From NCBI GenBank assembly GCA_035968315.1, contig JAVYIN010000002.1, positions 186,001-250,000 on the forward strand: DNA of 64,000 bases. The letters run 5' to 3'. The stretch is from Nitrospira sp. (lineage in GTDB: Bacteria; Nitrospirota; Nitrospiria; Nitrospirales; Nitrospiraceae). Shown here in pieces: positions 20,816-28,618 of this stretch. Each line of letters starts with the position of its first letter. Positions within the stretch are counted from its first letter, which is position 1. The translations under genes and the position numbers were made by a program. The notes beneath the pieces are model-generated. The model saw nothing but the letters and a program-made list of their open reading frames with translations, had not been told where the DNA came from and made no database searches.

Positions 20816-21178
20816 CTACTCCAGCACCTGCTCATCTTCCACCCGCCAGGCCGGATCGACCAGGCAGAGAAACTCGATATCGCACGTCCCGGTATTTTCC
20901 AACGATTGGTCTCCGCCCGGAGGCACATACAGAACCGATCCGCCCTCAACGGGACAGACGTCCTGATCGATCGTAAACCGCCCTTGCCCGGCAATAAAAT
21001 AGTACACTTCGGACGAGGCCAGCCGGTGCCGCTTTGACCGCCGCCCCGGCGCAAGCCGGCCATGGGCCACACTATAGCCCAACTCCACCGGCTGTTTGGC
21101 CGGATGCAACAACTCGCGGAGCACCGTATGGTCCCCGGCGAGAAACTCCTCGCAATCGGCAAGCGTGCGTTTCAACAT
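20816..21178 (-). CDS. Cupin-domain protein
   Basis: 120 residues from the ATG at 21178 (MLKRTLADCEE). A small single cupin barrel: first motif around ELGYSVAHGRLAPGRRSKRHR and second motif PGGDQSLENTG, with the segment EVYYFIAGQGRFTIDQD between. Some canonical metal-binding His residues are replaced, so metal dependence is uncertain. It lies between leuA and leuB in the same direction. Substrate or regulatory role is unknown. Confidence 0.75.
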   Translation of the reverse strand: MLKRTLADCEEFLAGDHTVLRELLHPAKQPVELGYSVAHGRLAPGRRSKRHRLASSEVYYFIAGQGRFTIDQDVCPVEGGSVLYVPPGGDQSLENTGTCDIEFLCLVDPAWRVEDEQVLE

Positions 21179-21261
21179 AGGAGACCGCCCCTTCGCCGAT
21201 CCCGCCCGCCAACAGCGGAAGACTGGCGCCAAAGACGATCACTGTAGCGTGGCTGGAACGA

Positions 21262-22809
21262 TCAAATCAAGCGAACCTTGCCCCCTCCGTCGGCCTGCTT
21301 CGACGCCATATAGGCCAGCCGATTCAGGGCATTCAAATAGGCCTTGGCCGCCGCCGTAATGATGTCGGTATCCGCGCCGTTTCCGGACACCGTCCGTCCA
21401 TCCTCCTCCACCCGCACAGAGACTTCTCCCTGCGCATCCGTTCCGCCCGTGATGGCGTTGACGCCAAACATCAGCAGCTTGCTCTTGGTCTTCGTAATGG
21501 ACGCGATGGTGCGATAGACCGCGTCCACCGGGCCGTCGCCCGAGCCGGATTCCTTGATGAGCCGGCCGTCGATTTCCAGTTCGACCGTGGCCGTCGGCAC
21601 ACGATCCGTCCCGCTCTCGACGTGGAACGATTTCAACACAATCCGCTCCGTCATCTTGGCCAGCTCTTCCGACACGATCACTTCCAGATCCTCTTCGTAG
21701 ATCTCTTTCTTCTGATCGGCCAGCTTCTTGAATCGTTCAAAGGCGTGATTGATCTCCTCCTCGGAGAGCTTGTAGCCCAAATCCTCCAGCCGCTGGCGGA
21801 AAGCATGCCGGCCGGACAACTTGCCCATCACCATTTTGCTTTCGACCAGCCCGATCGATTCCGGCCGCATGATCTCGTAGGTCGTCTTCTCCTTCAGCAG
21901 CCCGTCCTGATGAATGCCGGACGTGTGGGCGAACGCATTCGCCCCAACGATCGCCTTGTTCGGCTGCACCACCATGCCGGTAATCTTGCTGACCAGGCGG
22001 CTGCTCTTGGCGATCTCCTCGGTCCGGACGCCCGTATCGGCCTGATAGAAATCCTTCCTCGTCCTGAGCCCCATCACGATTTCCTCAAGCGACGTGTTCC
22101 CGGCCCGCTCCCCGATCCCGTTGATCGTACATTCGACCTGTCCCGCGCCATTCACCACCGCCGACAGGCTATTGGCCACCGCCAGGCCCAGGTCGTTGTG
22201 GCAATGCACGGAAATCACGGCCTGCTTGGCGTTGGGCACCTTCTCGCAAATCCCCTTGATCAACTGGCCAAATTCTTGCGGAACCGCATACCCCACGGTG
22301 TCCGGGATATTGATAGTTCCCGCCCCCGCCGCAATGACCGCTTCAATCACCTCGTAAAGGTAAGCCGGGTCGGACCGGCTGGCATCCATCGGGGAGAATT
22401 CCACATCGCTGACGTAACTTCTCGCCCGCTGCACCATCTCGACCGCCCGCTTCTTCGCTTCCTCCCGCGTCATTCGAAACTGATGTTTCAAATGAATGTC
22501 CGACGTCGAGAGGAACGTATGGATCCGGACCTTCGGCGCCCCCTTGAGCGCTTCCCACGCACGGTCGATGTCTTCCGGGCGCGCACGGGCCAGGCTGCAA
22601 ATCGTCGGCCCCTCCACTTCCTGCGCAATCCGCCGCACCGCTTCAAAATCGCCGGGCGAACTGTAGGCGAACCCGGCCTCGATAATATCGACGCCCAAGC
22701 GCGCCAACTGCTTCGCCACCATCACTTTTTCTTCCACATTCATGCTGGCGCCGGGCGATTGCTCGCCGTCGCGCAACGTCGTATCGAAAATCCTGATCAT
22801 CCGTTCCAT
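21262..22809 (-). CDS. leuA: 2-isopropylmalate synthase
   Basis: 515 residues. Condenses acetyl-CoA with 2-oxoisovalerate, the committed step of leucine synthesis. The N-terminal TIM barrel begins [19 protein letters not shown], with the metal-binding [14 protein letters not shown] segment. The C-terminal LeuA regulatory domain ([30 protein letters not shown]) binds leucine for feedback control in this family. A complete T-box leader precedes it, so transcription is expected to rise when tRNA-Leu is uncharged. Confidence 0.97.
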
Positions 22810-22839: not shown

Positions 22840-23100
22840 AGAAACACAAAAGCCCTCATCCCGATCCTTGCGGATCAGGGACGAAGGCTTGACGCACTTC
22901 GTGGTACCACCCTGCTTCGGTCACAGATGACGACCGGTCATCCATCACCCTTCATTGGCTCCTTACGGGAGCGACACGGAATCCATTACTCGTCTTCACG
23001 GATTCGGCTCAGAGGCGAGTTCTGCGGCGCACAGACCGGCTTGCACCACCCGCCGGTTCTCTCAGATCTATACGGCCCGCGTACTACTCCTCGTCGTCGC
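22840..23100 (-). promoter_or_regulatory. T-box leader (leucine-specific) upstream of leuA
   Basis: Read on the minus strand. Stem I distal region has AGAGAACCGGC..GGGTGGTGCAAGCCGGTCT. The specifier loop reads GAA-CTC-GCCTCTGAG, placing the Leu codon CUC at 23017-23019. The antiterminator has helix CAGGG/CCCTG (22910-22914 with 22876-22880), the 7-base bulge TGGTACC (22903-22909), and helix ACGAAG/CTTCGT (22897-22902 with 22881-22886). The fourth bulge base U would pair with discriminator A73 of tRNA-Leu. A competing terminator stem follows. The element begins directly after the pssA stop. Confidence 0.93.
22842..22890 (-). terminator. T-box attenuator terminator before leuA
   Basis: Minus strand: AAGCC-TTCGTCCCTGATCC, loop GCAA, GGATCGGGATGAGGGCTT, then TTTGTGTTT. 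Its 5' arm contains the bases that pair in the antiterminator, so the two structures exclude one another as in transcriptional T-boxes. Confidence 0.88.
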
Positions 23101-23101
23101 C

Positions 23102-23905
23102 TTACGCTTTGGGTTCTATCACAGGCTGATCGGACTTGAGAAGGGGCTTCTTCCCCATCGCTTTGGCGACCAGCCAAAAGACTCGTTCTGTCGGCCCCAT
23201 CAAGGCATAGCCGGCAAACACCACAAACAGCATGACCTCAGGCCACGCCGCAATCATCATCAACGCCAGAATTCCCCACACCAGATAGGTAATCTGCTGA
23301 TGCCCCTTGAATTTGAGATCCTTAAAGCTCCGGTACTTTACCGTACTGACCATCAGGAACGACAAGGCCAGGGTGATCAGAAGCACCGCGACCGGCTTCA
23401 CATCGGCTCCCATCCGGACAACATGCTGATCCAAAATCACCAGCGAGGCGACCACACCGGCTGCCGCAGGAATCGCCAGCCCCGTAAAATACTTGCTATC
23501 AGCCAGCGCCACGGTGGAATTGAATCGCGCCAGCCGCACCGCGCCCATCGCCACATAGGCAAACATCACGGCCACGCCGAACGTGCCCTGTCCGCTAAGC
23601 GCCCAGGAATAAATCAGCAGCCCCGGGGCCACACCGAACGAAACCACGTCGGACAAGGAGTCATATTCCAGCCCGAAATGGCTCGTGCTATTGGTCAGCC
23701 GGGCTGACTTTCCATCCAACACGTCAAAAATCATGGCCACTAAAATGGCGATCGACGCAGCCATGTAGTTGGCGTTAAAAATCGACAGAATCGCATAGAC
23801 GCCACAGAACAGATTCCCGGTGGTAAACAAATTGGGAATCAGGTGCATGGCCTGGCGCTTTCGCCCTTCCTTCGCAAACGCTTGCCGCAAGCCGTTTCCC
23901 TTCAT
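23102..23905 (-). CDS. pssA: CDP-diacylglycerol-serine O-phosphatidyltransferase
   Basis: 267-residue membrane enzyme making phosphatidylserine from CDP-diacylglycerol and serine. The CDP-alcohol phosphotransferase signature is complete: DG at DVLDGKSAR, then an eight-residue gap, G, and the two Asp of YDSLSD. About seven hydrophobic helices follow. Its start overlaps the psd stop by 4 bases (ATGA), so synthesis and decarboxylation of phosphatidylserine are coupled. The stop is immediately followed by the leuA T-box. Confidence 0.95.
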   Translation of the reverse strand: MKGNGLRQAFAKEGRKRQAMHLIPNLFTTGNLFCGVYAILSIFNANYMAASIAILVAMIFDVLDGKSARLTNSTSHFGLEYDSLSDVVSFGVAPGLLIYSWALSGQGTFGVAVMFAYVAMGAVRLARFNSTVALADSKYFTGLAIPAAAGVVASLVILDQHVVRMGADVKPVAVLLITLALSFLMVSTVKYRSFKDLKFKGHQQITYLVWGILALMMIAAWPEVMLFVVFAGYALMGPTERVFWLVAKAMGKKPLLKSDQPVIEPKA

Positions 23906-24552
23906 TGCAGTTCTCCTACAATGGTTTCCCCGCCCTTGACGCGATCACCCACCGCTACCCGCATCTTCGTCCCCAACGGAAGGAACGTATCCATCCGTGA
24001 TCCGAATCGGATCAACCCAAATCGCTCTCCTCGCGGCACGCGATCGCCGGCCGTCACCCAGCACACGATCCGGCGGGCGATCAATCCCGCCACCTGCACG
24101 CACAGAACTTTTGCGCCTTTGTCAGTCCGGATCATCAGCGCATTCTGCTCATTCCGCAGGGTCGCCTCGGGCTTGCTGGCAACCAGAAATGCGCCAGGCT
24201 GATATTGCACCTGCTCAATGAGCCCCTCACAGGGCGTCCGATTCACATGCACATCGAACACGTTCAAGAAAATCGTCAGCCGGATGCTGCGATCCTTGAG
24301 ATACCGTGGCTCGAATTCTTCCTCAATGGCGATGACTTTCCCATCGCCCGGCGCCACCACCACATTGGCGCCCTGAGGAACGACCCGAGACGGGTTACGA
24401 AAAAACCAGGCCGTAAAGAGGGTGAATCCTCCGGCAATGACAGCCGGAACCATCCACCCCATCACACCTGATAGCAGTGTAACCCCTCCCGTTATTCCAA
24501 CGAAGGGAATTCCTTCTTTCACAATCGGGATACCGACAGCGCGATCTGCCAC
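23902..24552 (-). CDS. psd: Phosphatidylserine decarboxylase proenzyme (short type)
   Basis: 216 residues, the short PSD class found in many non-enteric bacteria. Converts phosphatidylserine to phosphatidylethanolamine. The self-cleavage site that creates the pyruvoyl group is the G-S of LIRFGSRMD near the C-terminus. Motifs FFRNPSR, APGDGKV and NVFDVHVNRTPCEG are also family marks. Two hydrophobic segments lie in the first 50 residues. It lies 13 bases after ilvC and overlaps pssA. Confidence 0.95.
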   Translation of the reverse strand: MADRAVGIPIVKEGIPFVGITGGVTLLSGVMGWMVPAVIAGGFTLFTAWFFRNPSRVVPQGANVVVAPGDGKVIAIEEEFEPRYLKDRSIRLTIFLNVFDVHVNRTPCEGLIEQVQYQPGAFLVASKPEATLRNEQNALMIRTDKGAKVLCVQVAGLIARRIVCWVTAGDRVPRGERFGLIRFGSRMDTFLPLGTKMRVAVGDRVKGGETIVGELQ

Positions 24553-24565
24553 AGGATGAAGAGCC

Positions 24566-25600
<1,035 letters not shown>

Positions 25601-25636: not shown

Positions 25637-26155
25637 CTACTCGCGCGCCACTTTTTTCGGTTGCACGACACTGGCCCGAATCGGTTCACGGGCGACCGCC
25701 ACGCGGCCGGTCCGGGTGAGCTCCTTGATACCGAGCGGCTGCAACAGATTGATGATGGCTTCGATCTTTTTAGGATCGCCCGTCACTTCGATCGTATAGG
25801 TGGCCGGCGTCGAATCGATGACGTTCGCCCGGAAGATGTCCGCGATCCTGAGCGCCTCGGCCCGGTCTTCCGCCTTGGTGTGCACCTTGATCAGCGCCGT
25901 CTCCCGCGAGACGAACTCGCTTTCATTCAGATCGACCACTTTGATGACATCGATCAGCTTGTTCAGCTGCTTGACAATCTGCTCGATGATGCGGTCATCG
26001 CCGGACGTGACGATGATCATTTGCGACATCGACGGATCCAGCGTCGGCGCGACCGACAGGCTCTCGATGTTGAATCCGCGCCCGCTGAACAGCCCCGCGA
26101 CGCGGGACAGCACGCCAAACTTATTTTCCACTGTCACTGCGATGATATGTTCCAT
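25637..26155 (-). CDS. ilvN: Acetolactate synthase small (regulatory) subunit
   Basis: 172 residues. An N-terminal ACT domain (HIIAVTVENKFGVLSRVAGL, RGFNIESLSV) that binds valine for feedback is followed by the ALS-associated C-terminal domain (ALIKVHTKAEDRAEAL, TYTIEVTGDPKKIEAIINLL). It activates the catalytic subunit encoded 11 bases upstream. The name ilvH would be equally valid. Confidence 0.96.
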   Translation of the reverse strand: MEHIIAVTVENKFGVLSRVAGLFSGRGFNIESLSVAPTLDPSMSQMIIVTSGDDRIIEQIVKQLNKLIDVIKVVDLNESEFVSRETALIKVHTKAEDRAEALRIADIFRANVIDSTPATYTIEVTGDPKKIEAIINLLQPLGIKELTRTGRVAVAREPIRASVVQPKKVARE

Positions 26156-26166
26156 AGTCCGTTGCC

Positions 26167-27948
26167 TTACGCCGTCAAGACCGTATCTTTGTCTTCCGGC
26201 GTCACCTTCCCGGAGCCGGCCTGTTTCTGCTTTTTCTTCAACTCCGGCGGATCTTCCAGAATCATTTCATGATTGCACCCGCCGGCCGGAATCATGGGAT
26301 AACAGTTCTCGAACCGATAGGTCGGAACATCCACGATCACGGGTTTATCGACCGCAATCGCTTCCTTCAACACGCCATCGAGATCGCCCACCTTGCTGGC
26401 CCGCAACCCGACTGCGCCGTAGGCTTCAGCCAGCTTCACAAAGTCCGGCGTATTTTCGAGATCGCTGGAGGCATACCGCCCTTCGTAGAACAGGTCCTGC
26501 CACTGCCGCACCATGCCATGGAAACGGTTGTTCAACACAATGATCTTCACCGGAAGCTTGCTGACCACGGCGGTCGCCATCTCCTGCATGTTCATCTGAA
26601 TGCTGCCGTCTCCGGCAATGCAGAGCACCAAGCGGTCCCGGAACGCGGCCTGCGCCCCCATGGCGGCCGGGAAGCCAAAGCCCATCGTCCCTAATCCGCC
26701 TGACGTCAGCCAGCGATTCGGCTTCGCCAGCTTGAAATACTGCGCCGCCCACATTTGATGCTGGCCCACGTCGGTCGACACGATCGGATCACGATCCTTC
26801 GTGAGCTCGTAGAGCCGCTTGACCACATGCTGCGGCTTGATCGGTCCGTCGGCATCCTGCTGATAGGTCAAGGGATGATTGCGCTGCCACTCATGAATCT
26901 GATCCCACCAGGGCTTGCGCAATTCCTTTTGCTCGCCATTCACTGATGCGCGAAGGATCTGATTCAGTTCGCGCAACACCGTTTTGCAATCGCCCACGAT
27001 TGGAATATCGACATGGATGTTTTTCCGGATCGACGTCGGATCGATATCGACGTGAATGATCTTAGCGTGGGGGCAGAACTCGGAGACCTTCCCCGTTACC
27101 CGGTCGTCAAAGCGCGCGCCGATCGCAATCACGAGATCGGAGTAGTGCATCGCCATGTTGGCCTGATAGGTGCCATGCATCCCGAGCATCCCCATTGAAA
27201 GCGGATGCTCGCCCGGGAAGATGCCCAAGCCCATCAAAGTCATATCCACGGGAATCTGGGTGAGTTCGGCCAGCTCAAGCAATTCCTGCGCAGCCCCTGA
27301 AAACACCGCGCCGCCGCCCACATACAAAATGGGCTTCTTGGCCTTCATAATAGCCTCAGCCGCTTGCTTGATCTGCCACTTGTTGCCGTCGTACGTCGGG
27401 TTATAGCCGCGAATCGACACCGAGTTCGGATAGACGAACTCAGCCTTGGCCATCGACACGTCCTTGGGAATATCGACCAGCACGGGACCCGGCCGGCCGG
27501 TCGTGGCAATGTAGAACGCTTCCTTGATCGTCATGGCCAGATCGTTCACGTCTTTCACCAAGAAATTGTACTTGGTGCAAGGACGGCTCAAGCCGATATT
27601 GTCCGCTTCTTGGAAGGCATCATTGCCGATCAAACTCGTGGGCACCTGCCCGCTAAAACAGACCAGCGGGACAGAATCCATATAGGCATCGGCCAGCGCC
27701 GTAATGACGTTGGTCATGCCTGGACCAGACGTGACCAAAGCCACGCCGGCCTTCCCGGTCGCTTTGGCATACCCCTCGGCCATATGACCGGCACCCTGCT
27801 CGTGCCTGGTCAAAATCACTTCAAGATCCTTTTGCTGGTGGAGCATGTCGAAAATCTTCAGCACCACGCCGCCGGGAAGCGCGAAAATCGTTTTCACGCC
27901 TTCCCGCTTGAGGCTCTCGATAAAGATTTCTGATCCGTTGAGATTCAT
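26167..27948 (-). CDS. ilvB: Acetolactate synthase large (catalytic) subunit
   Basis: 593-residue thiamine diphosphate enzyme that condenses two pyruvates, or pyruvate with 2-oxobutyrate. The catalytic Glu lies in LTRHEQGAGHMAEGYA, and the ThDP-binding motif is CIAGDGSIQMNMQEMATAV ending in NN. It is the first gene of the branched-chain run, with a promoter about 125 bases upstream. Confidence 0.97.
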   Translation of the reverse strand: MNLNGSEIFIESLKREGVKTIFALPGGVVLKIFDMLHQQKDLEVILTRHEQGAGHMAEGYAKATGKAGVALVTSGPGMTNVITALADAYMDSVPLVCFSGQVPTSLIGNDAFQEADNIGLSRPCTKYNFLVKDVNDLAMTIKEAFYIATTGRPGPVLVDIPKDVSMAKAEFVYPNSVSIRGYNPTYDGNKWQIKQAAEAIMKAKKPILYVGGGAVFSGAAQELLELAELTQIPVDMTLMGLGIFPGEHPLSMGMLGMHGTYQANMAMHYSDLVIAIGARFDDRVTGKVSEFCPHAKIIHVDIDPTSIRKNIHVDIPIVGDCKTVLRELNQILRASVNGEQKELRKPWWDQIHEWQRNHPLTYQQDADGPIKPQHVVKRLYELTKDRDPIVSTDVGQHQMWAAQYFKLAKPNRWLTSGGLGTMGFGFPAAMGAQAAFRDRLVLCIAGDGSIQMNMQEMATAVVSKLPVKIIVLNNRFHGMVRQWQDLFYEGRYASSDLENTPDFVKLAEAYGAVGLRASKVGDLDGVLKEAIAVDKPVIVDVPTYRFENCYPMIPAGGCNHEMILEDPPELKKKQKQAGSGKVTPEDKDTVLTA

Positions 27949-28185: not shown

Positions 28186-28618
28186 GCGCGAGTGAGGAAG
28201 CCTATAAGCCGGATTCTGTCCTGCAAGAGCTCAACACCCTTGCATAGGTGACCATTTCTCTGGGACCCGAGTTACCCCGAGCCTCAAGCGACCTACCCGA
28301 AGACCCCGGCCGGGCCAGCCGTTGCGCAGTCTCTTTCGAAACCGCACGTGTCTTCCTATTTGGCCTTGCACCGGGCGACGCTTACCGTGCCAGTGATGTC
28401 GCCACCACTGCGGTGGGCTCTTACCCCACCGTTTCATCCTTACCTGAGCCGCAGCGACCAGATGGGATCCCGTCGCGTTGGCCATCGGCGGTTTGTTTTC
28501 TGTGGTGCTGGTGTCGGATTGCTCCGCCTGGGCGTTACCCAGCGCCCTGCCCCTGGAGTCCGGACTTTCCTCCCGATACCGAAGGTATCGAGCGATCACC
28601 CAGCCTCCTCACTCGCGC
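28186..28618 (-). ncRNA. rnpB: RNase P RNA (catalytic subunit of RNase P, class A)
   Basis: Minus-strand transcript. The 5' part reads GAGGAGGCTGGGTGATCGCT and GAGGAAAGTCCGGACTCC, and the 3' part ACAGAATCCGGCTTATAGG: the conserved ends of bacterial RNase P RNA. Helix P1 is formed by GCGCGAGTGAGGA at the 5' end and TCCTCACTCGCGC at the 3' end. A T-rich stretch (TTTTTCTTCT) follows P1. Length about 433 nt. It removes 5' leaders from tRNA precursors. Confidence 0.95.

Follow-up and report, generated by a model that had tools for sequence, protein, structure and literature searches.

The leuA gene of Nitrospira sp. is preceded by an RNA element that is almost certainly a leucine T-box, judging from its own sequence and that of its relatives. 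We favour, with a probability of roughly three in four, a reading in which a class I T-box senses tRNA-Leu(GAG), is transcribed from upstream and gates leuA. Positions given below are those of the window, i.e., the whole 64,000-nucleotide stretch of DNA analysed, and all window features discussed lie on its minus strand. A survey from 2013 placed T-boxes in Firmicutes, Actinobacteria, Chloroflexi and Thermus/Deinococcus as well as in Geobacter (PMC3766115), and our search of the literature returned no paper describing them in Nitrospira; the present element widens their known range to Nitrospira. It also leads to the prediction that Nitrospira, an important nitrifier, controls leucine synthesis apart from the genes for valine, isoleucine and membrane lipids.

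Identity and anatomy of the leuA T-box

The element spans positions 23101-22840, at the end of a gene run headed by ilvB (acetolactate synthase large subunit, 26167..27948, TIGR00118 above cut-off), which continues with ilvN (acetolactate synthase small subunit, 25637..26155, Pfam ALS_ss_C and ACT domains) and ilvC (24566..25582, NF004017 above cut-off). Next come psd (23902..24552, NF003678 above cut-off), which overlaps pssA by 4 nt, and pssA itself (23102..23905, TIGR00473 above cut-off). The controlled gene, leuA (21262..22809), encodes 2-isopropylmalate synthase (TIGR00973 and NF002086, both above cut-off). The T-box had been described as flush against the pssA stop, and this is literally so: the stop codon (23104-23102) abuts stem I, with pssA ending at 23102 and stem I starting at 23101. 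At the edges of the run, an ORF with a cupin domain lies between leuA and leuB (20816-21232), a place where relatives have a similarly sized gap. The RNase P RNA gene (28189-28611), which has a promoter-like site of its own (TTGTCA-18-TATACT), is found upstream of ilvB in the same orientation.

The initial annotation had claimed a complete leucine T-box upstream of leuA, and a covariance-model search with RF00230 bears this out. The full model (1-219) is matched at 23106-22874 with 93.1 bits (E 4.6e-19), the curated gathering score of Rfam for this family being 93 bits, and all the features that had been named were located. No other T-box was found in the 3.1 Mb genome, in which the leuA copy is the sole RF00230 match, and scores among relatives reach 126.5 bits. 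Because a single copy barely clears the curated cut-off, the case rests on the relatives and on covariation.

Pairing was followed in an alignment of 48 leaders from the window's own family. Stem I (23006..23101, from the RF00230 alignment and pair counts) comprises the base helices GGC/GCC and GAGG/CCUC, the specifier loop, the middle helices, a GAGA bulge and the distal hairpin ACCGGC/GCCGGU, whose loop is GGGUGGUGCAA; its helices 1-4 are 88-100% paired, and 16 pairs have changed on both sides. Stem II (22979..23005, GAAUCC/GGAUUC, pair counts) is paired in 99.7% of cells, with both-side changes in 5/6 pairs. In the stem IIA/B region (22956..22978, RF00230 alignment), the hairpin GCUCC/GGAGC shows such changes in all five of its pairs; a CG:CG pseudoknot arm was read by eye and stands outside these counts. 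Stem III (22919..22949, from the fold), flanked 5′ by AAGGG and 3′ by GAA, is only 73% paired because its length varies, and 9 of its 12 pairs have changed on both sides. The antiterminator (22876..22914, pair counts and fold energy) is built of CAGGG/CCCUG and ACGAAG/CUUCGU, paired in 100% and 99.3% of cells, around the T-box bulge UGGUACC (22903..22909), which is invariant in the alignment.

The putative intrinsic terminator hairpin (22888-22852) is followed by TTTTGTGTTTCT; its region folds at -43 kcal/mol (z -5.2). The U-run, UUUUGUGUUUCU (22840..22851), is interrupted, being broken up in the window species (UUUUGUGUUU), which counts against the favoured reading. A consensus terminator scan of the window did not list the T-box hairpin, and the terminator call rests on folds. 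Antiterminator and terminator had been read as mutually exclusive, and the folds agree: both use the strand CUUCGUCCCUG, so only one can form, and without tRNA the terminator (-29.1 kcal/mol) is much more stable than the antiterminator (-11.5 kcal/mol).

The specifier codon CUC, for leucine, lies at 23017..23019 and is directly preceded by GAA (23022-23020). The GAA-CTC specifier loop of the initial annotation is thus found at 23022-23017, and its leucine codon is conserved across relatives: CUC in nearly all those in Nitrospirota, and CUG, which still encodes leucine, in L017, L022 and L057. The genome itself encodes tRNA-Leu(GAG), with A73 followed by an encoded CCA. The proposed fit between the bulge U and discriminator A73 is confirmed in that UGGU is complementary to the ACCA of this tRNA (A73 and CCA), and tRNA-Leu(GAG) is accordingly the predicted ligand of the element.

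Covariation and spread of the element

The structure used for counting was taken from the RF00230 alignment and the window folds, and pairs were then counted directly. This choice was made because RNAalifold, when left to derive a structure from the alignment, combined the terminator with incorrect pairings in stem I and the antiterminator. In total, 90.6% of cells are paired, versus 32-49% after shifting the partner by 1-3 columns, a control that leans in favour of the structure since the latter came from Rfam and folds. The compensatory changes are independent of that bias: both sides have changed in 36 of the 59 pairs, and no shuffle reached the observed values. Together, the pairing and the compensatory pairs led us to reject a chance hairpin. 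The terminator is 87% paired in relatives and shows little covariation beyond shuffles, as expected with one strand tied to the antiterminator.

One could argue that the element is a decayed T-box that has lost its function, the conserved hairpin merely serving as an operon terminator. The window copy does just clear the curated cut-off, and the T-box is absent from sister families. Against this, compensatory changes occur throughout, the bulge is invariant and the antiterminator near-invariant in 48/48 aligned sequences, and the T-box is kept in 108 of the 110 genomes sampled from the window's own family (counted from the match table). Given this covariation and conservation across the family, decay was rejected as highly improbable.

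Across the phylum, T-box matches were found in 125 of 396 genomes; carriers other than the window's own family comprise 6 genomes in two families of the class and 11 in three families elsewhere. Psd and pssA lie upstream and leuA downstream in nearly all loci fetched. The named Nitrospira records L141, L145 and L186 encode LeuA proteins 87-92% identical to that of the window, which points to Nitrospira as the source of the window's family. Searching named genomes with the leucine T-box core gave at least 80 loci, in Nitrospira, Desulfuromonadales, Chloroflexi and Firmicutes among others. The order psd-pssA-[T-box]-leuA also occurs in other Nitrospirota and in Desulfuromonadales, some of which have ilvBNC ahead of it as well.

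The initial annotation had stressed a location outside Firmicutes. The location is correct, but it is less exceptional than was implied, given the Desulfuromonadales arrangement, the published leuA T-box of Geobacter and Pelobacter (PMC2494555, PMC2700814) and the near-universal presence of the T-box in the window's own family. As in the window, the Geobacter and Pelobacter element is a leucine T-box directly upstream of leuA, and in several Desulfuromonadales psd-pssA or ilvBNC-psd-pssA precede it. However, the LeuA of Geobacter and Pelobacter shares about 59% identity with the window's LeuA, the gap from pssA to the T-box looks longer in the Geobacter type, and T-boxes there that are not behind pssA have a promoter-like site. 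The kind of leuA T-box was therefore already known, and the window belongs to a new and very well conserved branch of it. Chloroflexi leucine T-boxes (L138, L191, L195, L196, L201, L205) share the GAA-CUC specifier and the core GGUGGUACC(A/G)CG but stand ahead of an ilvB-ilvN-ilvC-leuA block.

Several variants were seen among the relatives. T-boxes of family f9 (L055, L061, L068, L071) are without most of distal stem I, and in L040 and L045 about 59 nt separate the specifier from GGTGGTACC, stem II and stem IIA/B seemingly being missing. In L059, L067, L069, L070, L080, L082, L083, L085 and L088, a palindromic repeat of about 120 nt separates the middle helices of stem I from its GAGA bulge; it resembles a dispersed repeat with 15 matches in the window's genome. 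L051 carries at this hinge an insert that looks unrelated. In many Nitrospira (L009, L016, L021 and others), members of the palindromic repeat family are also found between the terminator of the T-box and leuA, and they account for much of the variation in leader length; the window has no full copy.

The route of transcription into leuA

According to the model that we favour, RNA polymerase coming from ilvBNC-psd-pssA would transcribe the T-box just past the pssA stop codon. As long as tRNA-Leu is charged, the antiterminator would remain unstabilised, the hairpin 22888-22852 would form and transcription would stop after pssA. When it is uncharged, its anticodon would pair with CUC and its free ACCA end with the UGGU bulge; the tRNA-bound antiterminator would then keep the common strand, and polymerase would read through into leuA. 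The T-box thus most likely decides whether transcription goes on into leuA, the first leucine-specific gene, and leucine synthesis would be opened separately from the upstream genes for valine/isoleucine and phosphatidylethanolamine. The T-box of the Bacillus subtilis ilv-leu operon likewise senses tRNA-Leu and serves branched-chain amino acid genes, yet it heads the whole ilvBNC-leuABCD operon (PMC12452182), so that leucine controls ilv and leu together, while the window T-box comes after ilvBNC-psd-pssA.

The presence of the terminator makes the element, as far as can be read from sequence, a class I, transcription-attenuating T-box. Control of leuA translation, in addition or instead, through hiding of its ribosome-binding site was considered, since translational T-boxes exist upstream of ileS in Actinobacteria (PMC1262725). 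Here, however, a terminator with a U-run comes after the antiterminator, and the spacing between GGTGGTACC and leuA varies within the family between about 73 and 277 nt, with a single value of 1201, which places the ribosome site of leuA outside the structure. On both grounds, translational control was set aside as very improbable.

A more serious alternative is that a genuine leucine T-box is transcribed from its own promoter in the 3′ part of pssA, the T-box and leuA forming a separate transcription unit. We scanned for a sigma70-like site whose -10 ends 6-24 nt before stem I. Sites resembling TTGACA/TATAAT, their -10 ending 13-20 nt ahead of stem I, do accompany T-boxes of f16, f9 and the Geobacter type: promoter-like sites were detected in 4/5 leaders of f16, 4/4 of f9 and 7/7 Desulfuromonadia T-boxes not behind pssA, versus 1/10 of those behind pssA. 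In f16 (L004, L008, L040, L045), a strong promoter-like site, TTGACA-17-TAAGAT, falls within the last part of pssA at 17-18 nt upstream of stem I; the flush position therefore does not exclude a promoter, and the earlier argument that there is no room for one after pssA is unsound. The L068 locus has a T-box and leuA with no upstream pssA, and TTGACA-17-TATCAT 19 nt before stem I.

The window and its family look different. No promoter-like site was found before stem I in the window, and only 1 of 72 family leaders has one, which is the chance level (0.9% in shuffles), in a scan whose power is limited, as it detects the promoters of only 6 of 23 tRNA genes, along with that of the RNase P RNA, in the window's genome. 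Of 61 family leaders measured, 35 have stem I starting 0-6 nt downstream of the pssA stop (after subtraction of a 10-nt offset). Moreover, leuA lies near or abuts pssA in sister families that have no T-box, which supports transcription of leuA through pssA. There is thus good but indirect support for leuA normally being reached in this way, and a separate promoter appears unlikely. The proposal that the T-box works as an internal attenuator is supported by the scan and by the sisters; in its own organism the element probably acts as one.

Sister families and a possible leucine-rich leader ORF

The sister families f2, f3 and f4 (these names being our working labels of families), which belong to the same order, have no T-box but keep the order ilvC-psd-pssA-leuA. 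The distance from pssA to leuA is 0-1 nt in two f3 genomes and 68-93 nt in f4; other sister genomes lacking a T-box have a terminator between the two genes. In f2, 19 spacers (L298, L299, L300, L307-L321 where the assembly is present, and L329; example MNKWQGKGRATLLLWDKSLVLLGVLTLLIGF) contain an ORF of 28-35 codons that starts at most 6 nt from the pssA stop and is followed by a terminator-like hairpin. Leucine accounts for 20.4% of the in-frame codons of these ORFs; base composition would give 8.7%, and the two remaining frames have 3.4% and 3.0%. In an alignment of seven g16 ORFs, synonymous changes make up 113 of the 222 codon differences that involve a single base (the pairs not being independent). 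The antiterminator pairing that classical attenuation would require in the f2 leader region, assessed from duplex energy, showed no clear gain over shuffles.

A trace of the T-box appears to persist in f2. The decamer CCTTCGTCCC, which is the strand common to the antiterminator and the terminator of the T-box, is found six times in the f2 loci (179 kb, both strands), each time within the spacer between pssA and leuA, a region that accounts for 3.7% of their bases; four of the six occurrences are in genomes with the leucine-rich ORF. This leftover argues for loss of the T-box in f2-f4 rather than for its gain in f1. The sister lineages have apparently lost the T-box or replaced it, and the sequences of f2 suggest that there its terminator was kept and that control has passed to a leucine leader peptide. 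Tentatively, and at somewhat less than even odds, the pssA-leuA joint may have seen the direct conversion of a tRNA-sensing T-box into a ribosome-sensing leader peptide that uses the T-box's own terminator; if true, f2 would represent an exchange between two unrelated ways of sensing leucine. The joint offers a natural series (T-box; terminator and leucine-rich ORF; bare terminator; nothing) in which one can trace how a regulator is gained, lost and replaced under fixed gene order. A short leucine-rich ORF before leuA is also known from the LEU element of Actinobacteria, a leuA leader peptide (PMC1262725). The window has no ORF of this type, and the f2 version comes with an intrinsic terminator and, in six genomes, with CCTTCGTCCC.
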